Source: an uncultured delta proteobacterium (GTDB lineage: Bacteria > Myxococcota_A > UBA9160 > JAFDET01). Taken from it: a stretch of 40,579 nucleotides of DNA. The position numbers and the translations under genes are program-made. A model generated the notes under the pieces. That model saw only the letters and a program-made list of their open reading frames with translations, had not been told where the DNA came from and made no database searches. The DNA is taken from the NCBI GenBank assembly GCA_947260035.1, contig CAMYOO010000001.1, positions 1-40,579 on the forward strand. The letters are read 5' to 3'. How positions within the stretch are numbered: position 1 is the first letter of the stretch; every line of letters starts with the position of its first letter. Shown piece after piece: positions 780-12,218 of the stretch.

Positions 780-1439
780 TCAAGCATCCGACCGGGGCTC
801 AGGCCCCTGCGCCTGGACGGTCATGCCCCGCAAGAGCAGGTCCACCGCATCCTGGAAGATCCGGTCCAGGCGGCTGCGCCGCAAGCGTCGCCGGGCCCCC
901 ACGTGCTCGGTGCGAATCAGGCCGTTGGCCACGGTCCAGAAGATGTTGGCCACCTCCCAGGGGTCGCAGGGGGCGAAGCTGCCCTGCTCCACGCCGTCCT
1001 GGACCGCGTCGGCGAGGATCCGCAGGCACTCGCTCCACAGCGAGGTGACCAGCTTGACCGCCTCCGGAGTCAGCTCGCCGATCACCTGCTGGTTTTCCAT
1101 CGCCCAGAAGATCGCGAAGTACTCCTCGTTGGCCGTCCAGTGCTCGAAGTAGAAGCGCGCGATGCGCCGGACCTGATCGACGGCGTCCCGGCCCTCGGCA
1201 CGGGCTTCGCGCATGCGCTCGGCGAAGATGTCGCCGCCATGGGCCAGCACGGCCACGTACAGGTCGGCCTTGCTGTCGAAGTAGCGGTAGAGGGTGCCCT
1301 TGGCGACGCCGGCGCCCTTGGCGATGTCGTCCAGGTTCGCCTCCACGAAGCCGTCGCGGAAGAAGACGTCGTGCGCCGTCTCGAGGATGCGGCGACGGTG
1401 GAAGGCCTTCTTGGCTTCGCGTCGGGAGACGTCGGTCAT
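780..1439 (-). CDS. TetR/AcrR family transcriptional regulator
   Basis: A 219-residue DNA-binding regulator. The N-terminal helix-turn-helix is clear: AHDVFFRDGFVEANLDDIA followed by GVAKGTLYRYFDSKADLY, the TetR signature, at about residues 20-60. The remainder is a helical ligand-binding domain with no recognisable specificity. I chose the ATG at 1439 because it overlaps the TGA of the upstream gene in ATGA, implying translational coupling; a longer frame from 1484 would add an Arg-rich tail unlike TetR proteins. It is the last member of a run that includes cysK and a carbonic-anhydrase-like gene. Its targets cannot be read from the sequence; autoregulation of this run or control of the neighbouring acpP are possible. 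Confidence 0.88.
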   Translation of the reverse strand: MTDVSRREAKKAFHRRRILETAHDVFFRDGFVEANLDDIAKGAGVAKGTLYRYFDSKADLYVAVLAHGGDIFAERMREARAEGRDAVDQVRRIARFYFEHWTANEEYFAIFWAMENQQVIGELTPEAVKLVTSLWSECLRILADAVQDGVEQGSFAPCDPWEVANIFWTVANGLIRTEHVGARRRLRRSRLDRIFQDAVDLLLRGMTVQAQGPEPRSDA

Positions 1440-3993: not shown

Positions 3994-4782
3994 CTAGGGG
4001 AATTGGTGCTGCGCCACCGGCGCGAAGCTGCGGCGGTGGATCGGCGACGGTCCCAGGCGGCGCAAGGCCGCCAGGTGCTCCGGCGTCGGATAGCCCTTGT
4101 GTTGGGCGAAGCCGTAGCCCGGGTGCGCGGCGTCGAGACGCTGCATGGACGCATCGCGGTAGACCTTGGCCACGATGGAAGCCGCGGCGATCGAGCCGTC
4201 CAGCGCATCGCCGCCCACGATGGCCGTCTGGGGCGTGCGCAAGCCGGGAATCGTGCGGGCGTCCACGACCACGTGGTCCGGCTCCTCGCCCAGGCCGAGC
4301 ACCGCGCGGCGCATGGCCTCGAGCCCCGCGCGGTAGATGTTCAGGCGGTCGATCTCGCGCTCGTCCACCTCGGCGATGCACAGGGCCAAGGCCTGCTCGT
4401 GGATGCGTCGGGCCAGGTCCTCGCGGCGTGCGCGGCTCACGCGCTTGGAGTCGTCGAGCCCCGGCAGGTCCACGACTTCGGGAAGCACCACCACCGCCGC
4501 CACCACCGGGCCGGCCAGCGGGCCCATGCCCACTTCATCCACCCCCGCCACCAGGCGCGCACCTTGCCGTTGCAGGCGACCGCGAAACTCGAACAGGGCC
4601 TGCACGCGCACGCGCTCGGCGAGCTCGCGCTCCCGTGCGCGGGCCAGCGTCTCGGACAGGCGCCGGGCGCCGGCTCGCGGGTCGTCGCGCAAGGCGTGCT
4701 CCAGACGCTGCCGCTGCTCCACATCGGGCGCCTCGCGCACGCGCGCGCGCAGCTCCGCCAGCGACAGCTCCTGCAGATTCAC
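3994..4782 (-). CDS. rnhB: Ribonuclease HII
   Basis: A 262-residue ribonuclease HII, which removes ribonucleotides and RNA from RNA-DNA hybrids. The acidic active site begins with Asp82-Glu83 in VAGVDEVGMGPLAGPVVAA, and continues through DDSKRVSRARRE, VVVDARTIPG and GDALDGSIAAASIVAKVYRD. The C-terminal motif HPGYGFAQHKGYPTPEH is typical. About 75 residues precede the catalytic core and look helical, like the N-terminal extension of some RnhB proteins. The GTG at 4782 overlaps the lpxD TGA in GTGA; a longer frame upstream would add an Ala/Arg-rich stretch inside lpxD. An lpxD-rnhB neighbourhood recalls the lpxD-fabZ-lpxA-lpxB-rnhB cluster of other Gram-negatives, here lacking the intervening genes. 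Confidence 0.94.
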   Translation of the reverse strand: MNLQELSLAELRARVREAPDVEQRQRLEHALRDDPRAGARRLSETLARARERELAERVRVQALFEFRGRLQRQGARLVAGVDEVGMGPLAGPVVAAVVVLPEVVDLPGLDDSKRVSRARREDLARRIHEQALALCIAEVDEREIDRLNIYRAGLEAMRRAVLGLGEEPDHVVVDARTIPGLRTPQTAIVGGDALDGSIAAASIVAKVYRDASMQRLDAAHPGYGFAQHKGYPTPEHLAALRRLGPSPIHRRSFAPVAQHQFP

Positions 4783-5810
4783 GCGTCGCCGCTCTCGCCG
4801 TCGAGCCCGTCCACGCGCTTCTCCAGCCTGCGCAGGCGCCGCAGCGCATCCGGCAGGCGCCACAGGGCCGCCATCGCCCGGTGCCAGGTGCGTTCGGCCA
4901 CGGCGGGCGAGCCGAAGACGCGCGCGCCCGCCGGCACGCTGCGGGCCACGCTGGAGCGCGCACCGACGAAGGCGCCCTCCCCCACTTCGAGGTGCCCGAC
5001 GGTGCCGGTGCGGGCCATCAAAATGGCTCGCCGTCCGATGCGCGTGCCGCCGCTCAGTCCCGACTGGGCCACCACGATGGCGTTCTCACCGATGTCGCAG
5101 TTGTGAGCCACCATGACCAGGTTGTCGAGCTTGGCGCCGCGCCGGATGCGCGTCTCGCCCAGGGAGGCGCGATCCACGGTGCTGCCGGCGCCGATCTCCA
5201 CATCGTCCTCGATCACCACACGGCCCACCTGCGGGACCTTCTCCCACTCGCCGTCGTCACCCGGCTCGAAGCCGAAGCCGTCGCCGCCCAGCAGCACACC
5301 CGGCTGCAGCGTCACCCGGTCGCCGACCCGCGTTCCCTCGCGCAGCACGCAGCCGGCGTGGATCTCGCAATCGGCGCCGACCTCCACGTCGGCGTAGAGC
5401 ACGGCGCCCGGATGAATCGCGGTGCGCGGGCCCACGCTGCTGCGTGCACCCACCACGGCGCGAGCCCCCACCGAGGCCTCGGAATGAACCCGGGCGTCCG
5501 GCGCCACCGAGGCGCCGGCATCGACGCCAGCCGCGGGCTGCAGGGGCGGGTGGAGCAGCGCCACCGCGCGCGCAAAGTCGCGGCGCGGCCGTTCGCTGCG
5601 CAGGGCCGGCCGCCCGCCGGAATCCACGCCCGCCGGAAGCACCACGGCGCCGGCCTTGCTGTCCGGCAGGCGCTCGGCCCAGCGAGCGGAGGTCACGAAC
5701 GAAAGCTCGCCCGGACCCGCCGCATCCAACGACGCGGCAGCCGTGATCTCCAGATCCCCGTCGCCCTCGGCGACCAGGCCCAGACGCTCGGCGAGCGCGG
5801 ACAGGCGCAT
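4779..5810 (-). CDS. lpxD: UDP-3-O-(3-hydroxyacyl)glucosamine N-acyltransferase
   Basis: LpxD adds the second 3-hydroxyacyl chain to UDP-acyl-glucosamine in lipid A synthesis, using acyl-ACP. The 343-residue protein has the uridine-binding N-terminal domain (GPGELSFVTSARWAERL, residues 33-49), then a hexapeptide beta-helix (about 95-290) with the catalytic His236 in VMVAHNCDIGENAIVVAQ, and a helical C-terminus. The start has an excellent ribosome site (AGGAGGT, about nine bases upstream). Its stop overlaps the rnhB GTG. The acpP gene that could supply its donor carrier is 4 kb downstream. The rest of the lipid A genes are not in the window, so the usual lpx cluster is split. Confidence 0.95.
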   Translation of the reverse strand: MRLSALAERLGLVAEGDGDLEITAAASLDAAGPGELSFVTSARWAERLPDSKAGAVVLPAGVDSGGRPALRSERPRRDFARAVALLHPPLQPAAGVDAGASVAPDARVHSEASVGARAVVGARSSVGPRTAIHPGAVLYADVEVGADCEIHAGCVLREGTRVGDRVTLQPGVLLGGDGFGFEPGDDGEWEKVPQVGRVVIEDDVEIGAGSTVDRASLGETRIRRGAKLDNLVMVAHNCDIGENAIVVAQSGLSGGTRIGRRAILMARTGTVGHLEVGEGAFVGARSSVARSVPAGARVFGSPAVAERTWHRAMAALWRLPDALRRLRRLEKRVDGLDGESGDA

Positions 5811-5835: not shown

Positions 5836-6654
5836 TTAGCGCGCGAGCAGGACGGCGATCGGCGAGGTGCGCACCACGGCGGCGGCGTTGCTGCCCAGGA
5901 AGTAGTCCGTGATGCGGTTGCGGCCGAAGGCGCCCATCACGATCAGCCCTGCGCCCGCCTCGCGGGCGGCGTCCACGCTCTTCACGTCGGGCCGGCCCAG
6001 CGTCGAAGAAGCCTCGCGCACCGGCACCGACAGCGAGCCCAGCAGCCGGCGCACCTCGTCGAAGCGCGCCACGGCACGGCCCTTGTCCTTGGAGTCGACG
6101 AACACCACGATGGACTCGTTCAGCCGGCTGGCCATCTCGACGGCGGTCTTGGCCGCCAGGCGCGAGCCCGGCGATCCGTCGAAGGCCAGCAGCAGCGGGC
6201 CGGAGAACTCGGCGCCCGCGGGCACGACCACCGACGACACGTTGGTCTTGCGCAGCACGCCCTGCACGGTCGAGCCGATCAGCCCGGTGCGGTAGGGCGC
6301 ATGCTCCCCGTCGCGCCCGATCACCAGCAGGTCCGAGCTCTGCGCGCGTTCCACGATGCGGTCGTCCGCGATGCCCTGCACGGTTTCGCAGCTGGCTTCC
6401 AGGCTCTCGGCGCGCGCGCGCTCGGAGAAACGGCGCGCCAGGGCATCGGCGCGGGACTTGCGCCAGGCCTCGATTCCATCGGGCGCCGCCGGCGCGCCCA
6501 GCCCCTCGTCCGGCGAGGGACGCACATAGCGATCCTCGACCACGGTGATGCCCGAAAGCCGCGCCGACAGGCGTCGGGCCAGCGAGATCCCGAAGCGCTC
6601 CGCCGCCCCTGCGGCCTCGGAACCGTCCGTCGCGACCAGTATCGTTTCGATCAT
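5836..6654 (-). CDS. Tandem universal stress protein (UspA family)
   Basis: A 272-residue protein with two UspA domains (about 1-140 and 141-272). Each begins with the family strand (ETILVATDGSEAAGAA; LLLAFDGSPGSRLAA). The second has a complete ATP-binding pattern G-2X-G-9X-GS in IVMGAFGRNRITDYFLGS; in the first, the matching segment GRDG...GS is one residue longer, so only one domain may bind nucleotide canonically. Such proteins help survival under starvation and stress; a partner is not evident. The ATG at 6654 (MIETILVATDGSE) was chosen over an upstream start because it matches the family N-terminus and has AGGACGGG before it. It is the first gene of the lpxD run, 25 bp upstream of lpxD, and has a strong candidate promoter at 6714-6743. 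Confidence 0.92.
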   Translation of the reverse strand: MIETILVATDGSEAAGAAERFGISLARRLSARLSGITVVEDRYVRPSPDEGLGAPAAPDGIEAWRKSRADALARRFSERARAESLEASCETVQGIADDRIVERAQSSDLLVIGRDGEHAPYRTGLIGSTVQGVLRKTNVSSVVVPAGAEFSGPLLLAFDGSPGSRLAAKTAVEMASRLNESIVVFVDSKDKGRAVARFDEVRRLLGSLSVPVREASSTLGRPDVKSVDAAREAGAGLIVMGAFGRNRITDYFLGSNAAAVVRTSPIAVLLAR

Positions 6655-6713
6655 CACCCGTCCTGCCTCTTGAGCGGTCGGCGCGGCACACCAGCCGTCA
6701 CCCGATCGAGCGA

Positions 6714-6743
6714 AGGGTATGGGATTCCCCGGGGGAATGTCAA
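6714..6743 (-). promoter_or_regulatory. Strong promoter of the universal stress protein operon
   Basis: Reading the minus strand, a perfect -35 TTGACA (6738-6743), an 18-bp spacer and -10 TACCCT (6714-6719) point towards the UspA gene, leaving a leader of about 50 bases. It is the best consensus promoter in the window. A palindrome fills most of the spacer (separate entry). Confidence 0.7.
6724..6738. promoter_or_regulatory. Palindrome inside the -35/-10 spacer (candidate operator)
   Basis: ATTCCCC at 6724-6730 and its exact complement GGGGAAT at 6732-6738 flank a single G. The dyad lies between the -35 and -10 of the stress-protein promoter and 26 bp before the divergent PLP-enzyme start. 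A protein bound here could control both genes. A long spacer with central dyad is the layout of MerR-type promoters, but no MerR gene is in the window. Confidence 0.55.
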
Positions 6744-6764
6744 TCAAAGGGAGCACCCCAAAAA

Positions 6765-7829
6765 ATGGAGCCCGCCCTCTTCCGCCGCTGGCCCGTCCTG
6801 CGCGGCCGGATCCACCACCACCCGCTGCTGGAGGGGCCGACCCCGGTGAAGCCCCTAGCGCTGAAGGGCGCACCGGACGGGGCCCTGCTGGTCAAGCACG
6901 ACGAGCGCTCGTGCCCGCTCTACGGAGGCAACAAGCCGCGCAAGCTCGAGTTCGTGCTGGGTCACGCCGTGGCCCATCGCTGCCGCCGCCTGGTCACGAC
7001 GGGAGGCATCGGAACCCACCACGGGCTGGCCACCACGATCCTGGGCCGCTCGGCCGGCCTGGAGACCAGCCTGGTCCTGATCGACCAGCCGCTCACCGAC
7101 GAGGTGCGCCGCAGCCTGCTGCTGATGGAGGCCTGGGGCGCCGAGCTGATCTTCGGCCGGGACGTGAAGGGCACGGCGCTGCACGTCTCGCGGGTGCTGG
7201 CCCGCGGCGCGGCTCGTGGAGAGCGGCCCTACCTGGTGGCGACGGGAGGCTCCTCGACCCGGGGCAACTTCGGCTTCGTGTCCGCGGCCTTTGAGCTGGC
7301 CGAGCAGGTGAAGGAGGGACAGCTTCCGGAGCCGGCCGAGATCTGGGTGGCGGTGGGCACCGGCGGCACTCTGGGCGGCCTGGCGGCCGGCGTGCGCCTG
7401 GCGGGTCTCCGCAGCCGGGTGGTGGGCGTGCTGGTCACGGACATCATGGCGCCCTCCCCGCGCTCCCTGGCCCGGGCGGCGACCCGGGCGGCCGGGTCCC
7501 TGCGGCGCGTCGCCCGAGAGCTTCCGGAGGTGCGCGTGACGTCCGATGAGATCGAGCTGGTCACGGACCAGCTGGGGCCGGGCTACGGCGCACCCACCCC
7601 CGAGGCCCAGGAGGCGGTGGCCAGCGCCGAGCAGGCCGGCCTGATCCTCGAGACGACGTACACGGGTAAGTGTTTCGCGGCCCTGCGCGCGCGGGCCGAG
7701 GCCGGCCGGCTGGATACGGGGCCGGTGCTCTTCTGGAACACCTACAACGCGGTGGACGTCGAGGCCTCGGCCCCGCGCCCGCTCGATTCGAAGCGGCTGC
7801 CGCCCGCCCTGCAGCGCCGGCTGGGGTAG
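6765..7829 (+). CDS. PLP-dependent enzyme, D-cysteine desulfhydrase/ACC deaminase family
   Basis: A 354-residue fold-type II PLP enzyme. The PLP lysine is Lys57 in YGGNKPRKLEFVLG, the signature of the D-cysteine desulfhydrase/ACC deaminase group. GTGGTLGGLAAGVRLAGL is the phosphate-binding loop, and a Gly-rich TGGSSTRGNFG segment occurs around residue 157. The substrate loop following Lys57 reads TTGGIGTHHGLATT rather than the SNH motif of DcyD and AcdS, so the substrate may differ. The cytoplasmic reaction would be an elimination or deamination of a small amino acid. It is first in a plus-strand run with a GMC oxidoreductase and MATE exporter; a 15-bp gap follows. The ATG at 6765 has AGGGAG about 11 bases upstream. 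Confidence 0.85.
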   Translation: MEPALFRRWPVLRGRIHHHPLLEGPTPVKPLALKGAPDGALLVKHDERSCPLYGGNKPRKLEFVLGHAVAHRCRRLVTTGGIGTHHGLATTILGRSAGLETSLVLIDQPLTDEVRRSLLLMEAWGAELIFGRDVKGTALHVSRVLARGAARGERPYLVATGGSSTRGNFGFVSAAFELAEQVKEGQLPEPAEIWVAVGTGGTLGGLAAGVRLAGLRSRVVGVLVTDIMAPSPRSLARAATRAAGSLRRVARELPEVRVTSDEIELVTDQLGPGYGAPTPEAQEAVASAEQAGLILETTYTGKCFAALRARAEAGRLDTGPVLFWNTYNAVDVEASAPRPLDSKRLPPALQRRLG

Positions 7830-9940: not shown

Positions 9941-11307
9941 GCGGAGAGCTCCCGGAGATCGAGACGATCTCCGAGGAGGCCGAAGGCGGTATCACGCTCG
10001 GCGTCTGGGAGCTGGCGTGGCCGACCATGCTCTCGTTCGCCCTGCAGACCGCGGTCGGCTTCGTGGACTTCGTGATCGTCTCCTCCCTGGGCACGGAGGC
10101 GGTGGCCGCCGTCGGCGTCGCGCACCAGTTCTACTTCGCCATCTTCGCCCTGCTGGCGGCCGTGACCACGGGCACGGTGGCGCTGGTGGCGCGCTTCATC
10201 GGAGCCGGCGACGAGCGCGAGGCCGACCGGGTGCTGCGGCTCTCGGCAGCGCTGGGCGTCCTGGTGGGCGCCGTCCTCATGGGCATGGCCCCCTGGAGCG
10301 AGAACGTGGTCGCGCTCTTCGGCGTGTCTCCGGAGGTGGTGGCCCTGGGCGGCTCCTACCTGCGCATCCTGCTGCTCTTCAACGTGCCCTTCACGCTCGG
10401 CGTGGTGGTGTCCATGGGCGTGCGCGGCGCCGGCGACGTGCGCACACCGCTGCTGATCGGCGTGGTCCTCAACGTGGTGAACGTGATCTTCAACTACGGC
10501 CTGGTGTACGGCCGCCTCGGGATGCCGAAGCTGGGAACCGACGGCTCGGCGCTGGGCACCGGCATCGCGATGACCCTGGGCACCCTGATCTGGCTCGAGC
10601 TGTGGCGGCGCAACTGCCTGGTCATTCCGCGCCGCGGTTGGCTCGACGGCTTCAGCCTCGAGCGCGCCCGGCGCATCATGCGCATCGGCGTGCCTACGGC
10701 GCTGGAGCAGATCGCATTCCAGGTGGGCCTGCTGCTCTTCCTGCGCGTGGTGGCCCGCTTCGGCACCGATCCCGTTTCCGCCTACCTGATCGGGGTGCGC
10801 ATCCTGGCCTTCTCCTTCGTCCCGGGCATCGGCTACGCCCAGGCCGGCAGCACCCTGGTCGGGCAACACCTGGGCGCCGGCGACCCCGACGGCGCGGCGC
10901 GCTCGGGCTGGCGCGCCACCGGAGGCGCCATGCTGGTGATGGGTGGCGTGGGCCTGCTGATCATCGTGACGGCGCCCTGGATCGCGCGCATCTTCGGCGC
11001 CGCCGGGCAGAACACCGTCGACCTGACCGTGATCTTCATCTACATCCTCGGCGCGGTGCAGCCGCTGATGGCGATGGAGTTCGCGCTGGGCGGCTCGCTG
11101 CGCGGCGCCGGCGACACGCGCTTTCCGCTGTTCGTGATCCTCACCGGCCTGTTCGGCGTGCGTCTGGTCTCGGCCTACCTCGTGGCCGGCGTCTTCGGCG
11201 GCGGCGTGGTGGCGGTCTGGTGCTGCCTGCTCGCGGACTACGCCGTCAAGGCGACCATGCTCTCGCTGCGCTTCGCCTCCGGAGCCTGGAAACGGGTCCG
11301 CGTCTAG
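9937..11307 (+). CDS. MATE family efflux transporter
   Basis: A 456-residue protein with about 12 membrane spans in two similar halves. Typical MATE segments are WELAWPTMLSFALQTAVGFV in the first span and LRGAGDTRFPLFVILTGLFG in the second half. Such carriers export organic cations or drugs using a sodium or proton gradient. The GTG at 9937 overlaps the GMC stop in GTGA. Being coupled to a GMC oxidoreductase suggests export of its substrate or product, but this is inference. Its TAG shares a CTAG (11304-11307) with the convergent CBS gene. Confidence 0.9.
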   Translation: MSGELPEIETISEEAEGGITLGVWELAWPTMLSFALQTAVGFVDFVIVSSLGTEAVAAVGVAHQFYFAIFALLAAVTTGTVALVARFIGAGDEREADRVLRLSAALGVLVGAVLMGMAPWSENVVALFGVSPEVVALGGSYLRILLLFNVPFTLGVVVSMGVRGAGDVRTPLLIGVVLNVVNVIFNYGLVYGRLGMPKLGTDGSALGTGIAMTLGTLIWLELWRRNCLVIPRRGWLDGFSLERARRIMRIGVPTALEQIAFQVGLLLFLRVVARFGTDPVSAYLIGVRILAFSFVPGIGYAQAGSTLVGQHLGAGDPDGAARSGWRATGGAMLVMGGVGLLIIVTAPWIARIFGAAGQNTVDLTVIFIYILGAVQPLMAMEFALGGSLRGAGDTRFPLFVILTGLFGVRLVSAYLVAGVFGGGVVAVWCCLLADYAVKATMLSLRFASGAWKRVRV

Positions 11308-11753
11308 CGGCCCGAACGCGGTCCAGCTGCCTGGGCGTCGCGGGTGACGAGGTCGGCGAAGTAACGCAGCAGGTCGGTCTCGGTGAGCATCCCCACCAGC
11401 TCCTCGCCCCGCAGCACCGGCAGGCAGCCGATCTTGTTGTCGGCCATGACCCGCGCCGCCTCTTCCACCGGGGCGTCGGCATCGACGATCACCGGAGGCG
11501 CGGACATCACCTGGGAGATGTCGATCGCCTCGAGAAAAGCGCGGCGCTCCTGGCGGCGGGGGTCCAGGCTCGAGAGCGAGGCGCGCAGCAGATCGCGCTC
11601 GGAGACCACGCCCACCAGACGGCCGGCGCGCACCACGGGCATGTGCCGCACCCCGCCCAGCGTCATGATATCCTCGAAGGTCGAGAGCCGATCGCCGACA
11701 CTGATCGTGACAACCTTCTCTTCCATCACGTCGCGAACCAGGACCGGAGCCAT
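11304..11753 (-). CDS. CBS domain pair protein
   Basis: A 149-residue protein that is essentially two CBS motifs. The first is VRDVMEEKVVTISVGDRL...HMPVVRAGRLVGVVSERDLL (about residues 6-57), the second SQVMSAPPVIVDADAPVEEAA...CLPVLRGEELVGMLTETDLL (about 75-130). CBS pairs bind adenosine nucleotides and act as sensors; no effector domain is fused. The ATG at 11753 has no ribosome site but lies seven bases after TAGACT, so it may be leaderless. Only 18 bases separate it from the start of the divergent gene at 11772. Confidence 0.88.
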   Translation of the reverse strand: MAPVLVRDVMEEKVVTISVGDRLSTFEDIMTLGGVRHMPVVRAGRLVGVVSERDLLRASLSSLDPRRQERRAFLEAIDISQVMSAPPVIVDADAPVEEAARVMADNKIGCLPVLRGEELVGMLTETDLLRYFADLVTRDAQAAGPRSGR

Positions 11754-11766
11754 CCAACGGAGTCTA
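11754..11766 (-). promoter_or_regulatory. Candidate -10 of a leaderless CBS-gene transcript
   Basis: On the minus strand TAGACT (11761-11766) is followed by seven bases and then the ATG at 11753. With only 18 bp between the two divergent start codons, the hexamer also overlaps the GGAG (11759-11762) that serves as ribosome site for the plus-strand gene. One short segment therefore has to serve both genes. Confidence 0.45.
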
Positions 11767-11771
11767 CTCCA

Positions 11772-12218
11772 ATGCCGGACAGGAAAGGGAGCAAAGACAG
11801 CTCCCGAGAGAAGCGACGCACACCGTCTAGCGCCGACACGCAAGATGAGCGCGCCGCGCTGCTTCCCGAGCTCTTCCGCCGTGCCTTCACGCTGGGGCTC
11901 TCGGGAATCTTCACCACTGAAGAAGCCTTCCGACGGGCCCTGGGGGACACCGTGCCTCGGGATTGGGTGGATTTCGCCGTCGATCAGAGCGACCGGACGC
12001 GCAGCGACTTCACCGACAAGATGGCCGCGGAAATGGGGCGGGTGATCGAAAGCATGGACCTGGAGGCGATCCTGCGCAGCGTCCTGGCCGACCATCGCGT
12101 CGAGGTGAAGGCCGAGATCCAGCTCGTGCCCCGGGAGAAGGAAGAGAGCGGCCGCAAGGGCGGCAAGTCGACCGCCGCGGCCAAGGTTTCAATCGTGCGC
12201 GGCGGAGGGGGCAAGTGA
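11772..12218 (+). CDS. Conserved-looking helical protein, unknown function
   Basis: I do not recognise this 148-residue protein. It has a polar basic N-terminal tail (MPDRKGSKDSSREKRRTPSS), then a helical, amphipathic middle (LLPELFRRAFTLGLSGIF to about residue 115) and a Lys/Gly-rich tail ending VRGGGGK. The helix pattern, with FRRAFTLGL and a stretch suited to coiled-coil pairing (DKMAAEMGRVIESMDLEAIL), is loosely phasin-like, but I do not claim that. No signal peptide or membrane span is seen. The ATG has GGAG ten bases upstream. Its TGA overlaps the GTG of the next membrane protein gene, so the two are coupled. Confidence 0.7.
   Translation: MPDRKGSKDSSREKRRTPSSADTQDERAALLPELFRRAFTLGLSGIFTTEEAFRRALGDTVPRDWVDFAVDQSDRTRSDFTDKMAAEMGRVIESMDLEAILRSVLADHRVEVKAEIQLVPREKEESGRKGGKSTAAAKVSIVRGGGGK

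Follow-up and report, generated by a model that had tools for sequence, protein, structure and literature searches.

The gene for a universal stress protein (usp) in an uncultured delta proteobacterium is preceded by a sigma70-type promoter whose spacer holds a short dyad, and the core of this dyad is kept before usp, or before an operon containing it, in nearly all relatives compared. We estimate a probability of about 0.55 that this is a promoter with an operator-like spacer dyad, probably the site of a repressor, that descends from the promoter of an aldehyde dehydrogenase (ALDH)-usp operon, a reading drawn from sequence comparison. Below we document the position of the element, its conservation, its association with the gene and the extra constraint on its spacer.

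A dyad in the spacer of a promoter facing usp

The window is a stretch of 40,579 nucleotides. On its minus strand, positions 6743 to 6714 read TTGACA, 18 bp and TACCCT in the direction of usp, and 59 bp separate the 3' edge of the promoter element (6714) from the usp ATG (Table 1). The first-pass annotation had pointed out this arrangement together with the dyad ATTCCCC-G-GGGGAAT, and both can be read directly from the sequence. The neighbouring genes had also been named correctly, the stress protein matching PF00582 and the divergent PLP-dependent enzyme having the PALP fold (PF00291); the closest NCBIfam models to this enzyme are those of the D-cysteine desulfhydrase/ACC deaminase family, all under the cut-off. 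Two descriptions went somewhat too far. The promoter had been called a consensus one, which is right for the -35 box (6/6 positions) but overstates the -10 box, where TACCCT agrees with TATAAT at only 3/6; and the palindrome had been said to fill the spacer, which it nearly does, although it shares one base, the last, with the -35 box and stops 4 bp (6720-6723) short of the -10 box. Because of the weak match of the -10 box, a standard consensus promoter scan of positions 6000-7400 listed no promoter.

Table 1. Coordinates of the promoter element and of the genes considered with it (positions in the window).
Feature	Position	Strand	Remarks
TetR-family regulator	780..1439	-	PF00440; same cluster as usp; a weak candidate for binding the dyad
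lpxD	4779..5810	-	PF04613; next behind usp, same strand; gene order common to relatives
usp, universal stress protein of 272 aa with two domains	5836..6654	-	PF00582 in two stretches; presumed to be driven by the promoter
-10 box TACCCT	6714..6719	-	TA and final T invariant in 19 aligned sites; TAnnnT in family f5
18-bp spacer, TTCCCCCGGGGAATCCCA	6720..6737	-	Direct reading
Perfect dyad ATTCCCC-G-GGGGAAT	6724..6738	not applicable	Direct reading
Conserved core, here CCCCCGGGG	6727..6735	-	General form CCC-N-CGGGG
-35 box TTGACA	6738..6743	-	Direct reading; TTGAC invariant in 19 aligned sites; TTGC or TTGA in family f5
Divergent PLP-dependent enzyme, PALP fold	6765..7829	+	PF00291

The pattern TTGAC-N17-19-TANNNT occurs once in the window against 0.1 expected, and 7-bp odd dyads are not rare there (6 observed, 7.8 ± 2.9 in 20 Markov shuffles). 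The exact dyad is present in a single copy in the 4.58-Mb genome assembly. Two mismatches allow six further places (1 for the reversed control), all of them in or near long open frames and none promoter-like when the open frames were inspected. We also asked whether copies elsewhere in the assembly form a regulon, which is not supported: the exact dyad occurs once, and relaxed box-core-box matches number 14 and 17 against 21 and 20 for the reversed control. The only other promoter of this assembly that fits TTGAC, core and TANNNT lies at G000:C307:245-274 (locus L042), where TTGACG, a spacer with CCCATCGGGGG and TACGCT stand directly before a DUF3015 gene; it is a plausible second promoter.

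Conservation of the element across the order

We compared the locus among genomes of one order of uncultured Myxococcota, an order which we take to be UBA9160 of GTDB. The element stands before usp or an ALDH-usp operon in 72 of 75 genomes, spread over ten families, the first gene being ALDH in 30 and usp in 42. The search set held 79 genomes of the order, with G002, G018, G049 and G060 outside the count of 75. The three genomes without a site are G047, where the contig ends, G013, where the core is altered, and G065, whose fetched locus was too short but whose site was nonetheless seen in the profile and pattern searches. The 72 sites were chosen with a loose core requirement, a rule that accepts a mean of 0.4 of 72 when applied to shuffled upstream regions. 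Because of this filter, the same 72 genomes were recounted by the boxes alone, with no core requirement: exactly one promoter was found in 42 of the 44 upstream regions outside family f5 and in 28 of 28 within it, and the strict core is present in 68 of these 70. The spacer measures 18 bp in 44 sites and 17 bp in 28 (n = 72), so that the boxes have the 16-18 bp spacing of the sigma70 type and keep it in relatives; the focal -10 box agrees with TATAAT at 3/6 positions.

A sequence profile built from 19 sites was searched against 97 genomes; in 39 of them it found a single place at E < 1e-4, and these 39 include the 19 genomes used for training. All 30 loci that the profile returned lie at one of two genes, 23 at ALDH and 7 at usp. 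A match in G086 (class f12, E 0.001), which falls within a long open frame, was discarded. Family f5 gave no strong profile match; a position-weight scan revealed in it a diverged element upstream of usp or ALDH, with TTGC or TTGA as the -35 box, a 17-bp spacer, TAnnnT and the core retained.

It is CCC-N-CGGGG that is conserved, not the full arms of the dyad. The first-pass annotation had suggested looking for the dyad upstream of usp in relatives, and the core is indeed there, but full outer ATT/AAT arms were seen, among the 19 aligned sites, in the focal genus only. It had named as the refuting case a palindrome lost while the boxes are kept. This is contradicted at 70 of the 72 sites, which have the strict pattern (the exceptions are G011 and G024), but something close to it is seen in G013 (2.2 Mb) and G024 (a 2.8-Mb assembly), where box-like sequences persist around a changed core; G054, likewise a small assembly, retains the core. 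The core takes the forms CCCGCGGGG (31 sites), CCCTCGGGG (12), CCCTCCGGGG (10), CCCCGCGGG (5), CCCACGGGG (5) and rarer ones (seven). Both orientations are present, CCCGCGGGG 31 times and CCCCGCGGG 5 times in raw counts, as expected of a symmetric site. CCC and GGG are nearly fixed, and one core position varies while its partner stays, which leaves the dyad imperfect in most relatives; no clear case of compensatory change between half-sites was found in the compared sites. The centre of the core lies 9.5-11.5 bp before the -10 box in the 70 strict sites, a drift of up to 2 bp, and the distance from dyad to -10 box is kept when the spacer differs by 1 bp.

In family f7, five ALDH leaders (L022, L023, L026, L028 and L030) carry, 32-42 bp downstream of the first, a second CCCCGCGGG adjacent to the ribosome-binding region. 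As a second operator this is not significant, with 5 of 72 leaders against a mean of 1.8 and a largest value of 6 in shuffles.

Gene order points to an ALDH-usp operon

One usp orthologue each was found in 74 of the 97 genomes. The usual order in relatives is element-ALDH-usp-lpxD-rnhB-truD-cysM; usp follows ALDH directly in genomes such as G032, G003 and G041. From this common gene order we infer that the promoter was ancestrally that of an ALDH-usp operon and that the focal genus lost ALDH from it; there the gene is absent from this place and usp would be driven directly. The own genome has an ALDH 58% identical to the query, located elsewhere.

The PLP enzyme was found in 48 of the 97 genomes searched, and many of its orthologues have the same element upstream, mostly facing ALDH rather than usp. 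The idea that one protein bound here sets the levels of stress protein and PLP enzyme together is not supported by the comparison: the PLP gene neighbours the element in 19 of 72 genomes, the element is kept where that gene is not beside it, and no plus-strand promoter is listed in the divergent gap, either by the standard scan or by the stricter pattern TTGAC-N17-19-TANNNT. In several relatives (L009-L032, upstream of PLP orthologues) a gene for a CBS-domain protein lies directly upstream of the element; the CBS-domain gene of the window (11304-12095) is separated from the element by about 4.6 kb, a stretch that includes the PLP gene and other frames.

The usp spacer compared with the erpA spacer

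The promoter of erpA served as a control. This gene was matched in 87 of the 97 genomes; 30 loci were fetched, 16 of which have TTGAC-N15-19-TANNNT. Mean pairwise identities were taken over 14 genomes with both promoters (78 usp pairs and 91 erpA pairs). Spacer identity is 0.70 at usp and 0.39 at erpA. The boxes are about equally alike at both genes (-35, 0.94 at usp and 0.91 at erpA; -10, 0.82 and 0.80), partly by construction as both sets were chosen by their boxes, which leaves the spacer and flank figures unaffected. Identity of the 20-bp upstream flank is 0.33 at both, and that of the 20-bp downstream flank 0.32 at usp and 0.28 at erpA. Since the usp spacer is 70% identical where that of erpA is 39%, with flanks near 30% in both, and since its core is kept in 70 of 72 sites, we conclude that this spacer is under selection of its own. 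The strict core is found in 3 of the 16 erpA spacers.

These figures also bear on whether the dyad could be a random palindrome in a GC-rich spacer. Dyads of this size are common in the window and the outer arms are mostly unconserved, as chance would have it, so that the dyad alone would be insufficient to exclude it; but the element is conserved at the same gene in 72 of 75 genomes with its core nearly constant, shuffled upstream regions hardly ever satisfy even the loose rule, and spacer identity is far above that of the flanks. A chance origin is hardly credible.

The core in other promoters of the order

The core recurs in promoters of the order and, among those compared, is fixed only at ALDH-usp. 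The pattern TTGACN{1,8}CCNNCGGGGN{3,8}TANNNT has 124 matches in the 97 genomes, whereas its reverse has 16 and a version with the core permuted has 14; of the 124, 37 belong to ALDH/usp and 87 to other places. We inspected by eye the region downstream of 38 of these 87, and many look housekeeping, with frames that resemble ErpA, NuoA, IlvC, acetolactate synthase, GmhA, MetY, trigger factor and AspS, and some without a convincing gene. In genus g5 the profile gives a second site (E about 0.02), which in G051 precedes ilvC (L126 4102-4130) and has TTGACA, CCCCTGCGGGG and TAGCCT in the same layout as the element; strings near-identical to it occur in G006, G042, G045 and G057.

A wider set of spacers was drawn from the own genome and G003, for which 149 of 176 promoter-like matches are listed, real and chance ones mixed and with one overlapping duplicate omitted. 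Among the matches listed, the spacers are C-rich and then G-rich, and the strict core is found in 8 of the 149, two of them the ALDH/usp sites. An inverted repeat with arms of at least 4 is present in 44 of these spacers against 31.1 ± 4.4 after shuffling, a count reached by 1 of 500 mononucleotide shuffles. A different spacer palindrome, GACGCGCCGCGTC, occurs in three promoter-like matches (G000:C9:19998-20025, G003:C10:191647-191674 and G003:C32:25525-25552).

The excess over the reversed and permuted patterns, the many housekeeping-like genes and the C-to-G trend of the spacers in two genomes would all suit an intrinsic spacer element, in which RNA polymerase itself would read the step from C-run to G-run through its shape, twist or stiffness, and promoter strength would be set with no operator. 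That many other promoters are also enriched in this core speaks against an operator and fits a general spacer feature as well. On the other hand, the erpA spacers drift freely in the same genomes although their boxes are similar, which implies that polymerase does not need the core, and the core at usp is kept while the -35 box decays in family f5. We regard the intrinsic element as the main rival to the operator, though the less likely of the two.

More speculative and rather unlikely is a spacer code used by the Myxococcota of this order, in which sigma70 promoters of one class would be marked by CCC-N-CGGGG about one turn upstream of the -10 box. The mark would be at its strictest before ALDH-usp and more relaxed before ilvC-, nuoA-, erpA-, metY- and gmhA-like genes. 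Such a mark would be read by an undescribed global regulator or through a lineage-specific property of the RNA polymerase holoenzyme, and would tie the expression of stress protein and housekeeping genes together.

Candidate readers of the dyad

TetR proteins bind palindromes that overlap promoters, and a gene of this family lies in the same cluster as usp (Table 1), so the dyad might be its operator. The TetR gene is present in the fetched cluster region of 11 of 18 genomes and has orthologues in 72 of the 97. Still, with a 105-residue query and incomplete MAGs, seven genomes that carry strong sites (G008, G009, G030, G034, G038, G054 and G057) show no orthologue at a threshold of E <= 1e-20, and the gene is absent from the 14-kb cluster region of G009, where frames for usp and polA are present. 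Conversely, genomes of class f12 have the TetR protein and are without this usp and the element. Within the limits of query and assemblies, regulator and site do not go together consistently, which counts against an operator read by the linked TetR and makes this assignment improbable.

The first-pass annotation had thought of twisting activators such as MerR, and a symmetric sequence between -35 and -10 is indeed what the element shares with MerR-family promoters, where an activator on the dyad would twist an over-long spacer into register. No over-long spacer (at least 19 bp) was found: all 72 have 18 or 17 bp. In the account of mer promoter derivatives given in PMC11049809, those with 17-18 bp spacers are strong and constitutive, MerR is almost without effect on those of 16-18 bp, and it is the 19-bp promoter that is regulated. 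The spacers here are 17-18 bp instead of 19 bp, so untwisting would not be needed, and a MerR-type mechanism is very improbable.

Of what had been suggested, a repressor sitting between -35 and -10 is still the most convincing form, as judged from the sequences.

Discussion

The element is of a known kind, an operator-like dyad within a promoter spacer. Promoters with an operator between -35 and -10 are known from steric repression of the TetR, LexA or phage-repressor type. Like these, the usp promoter has a palindromic site within a normally spaced sigma70-type promoter; unlike them, it has a conserved site that is only about 9 bp long, very rich in G and C and imperfectly symmetric, with one strong site per genome. 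A comparison with the E. coli uspA promoter is by kind of gene alone: both serve a universal stress protein gene, but here the protein has two Usp domains, and many relatives have an ALDH operon. A search of the open-access literature by titles and abstract beginnings found no description of the element.

In the repressor reading that we prefer, sigma70-type boxes 17-18 bp apart would enclose, roughly a turn of the helix upstream of the -10 box, a CCC-N-CGGGG core serving as the operator of a dimeric transcription factor. The factor would most likely be a repressor that takes up the spacer and keeps RNA polymerase out, and it may release the site under a stress or metabolic signal.

Promoter spacers usually vary freely. 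The spacer before usp is nearly as conserved as the -10 box across an order of uncultured bacteria, whereas that of a control promoter drifts in the same genomes. The element offers a defined starting point for finding what regulates the universal stress protein in these little-studied bacteria, and it lets one examine whether a class of promoters can be marked by a short dyad in the spacer.
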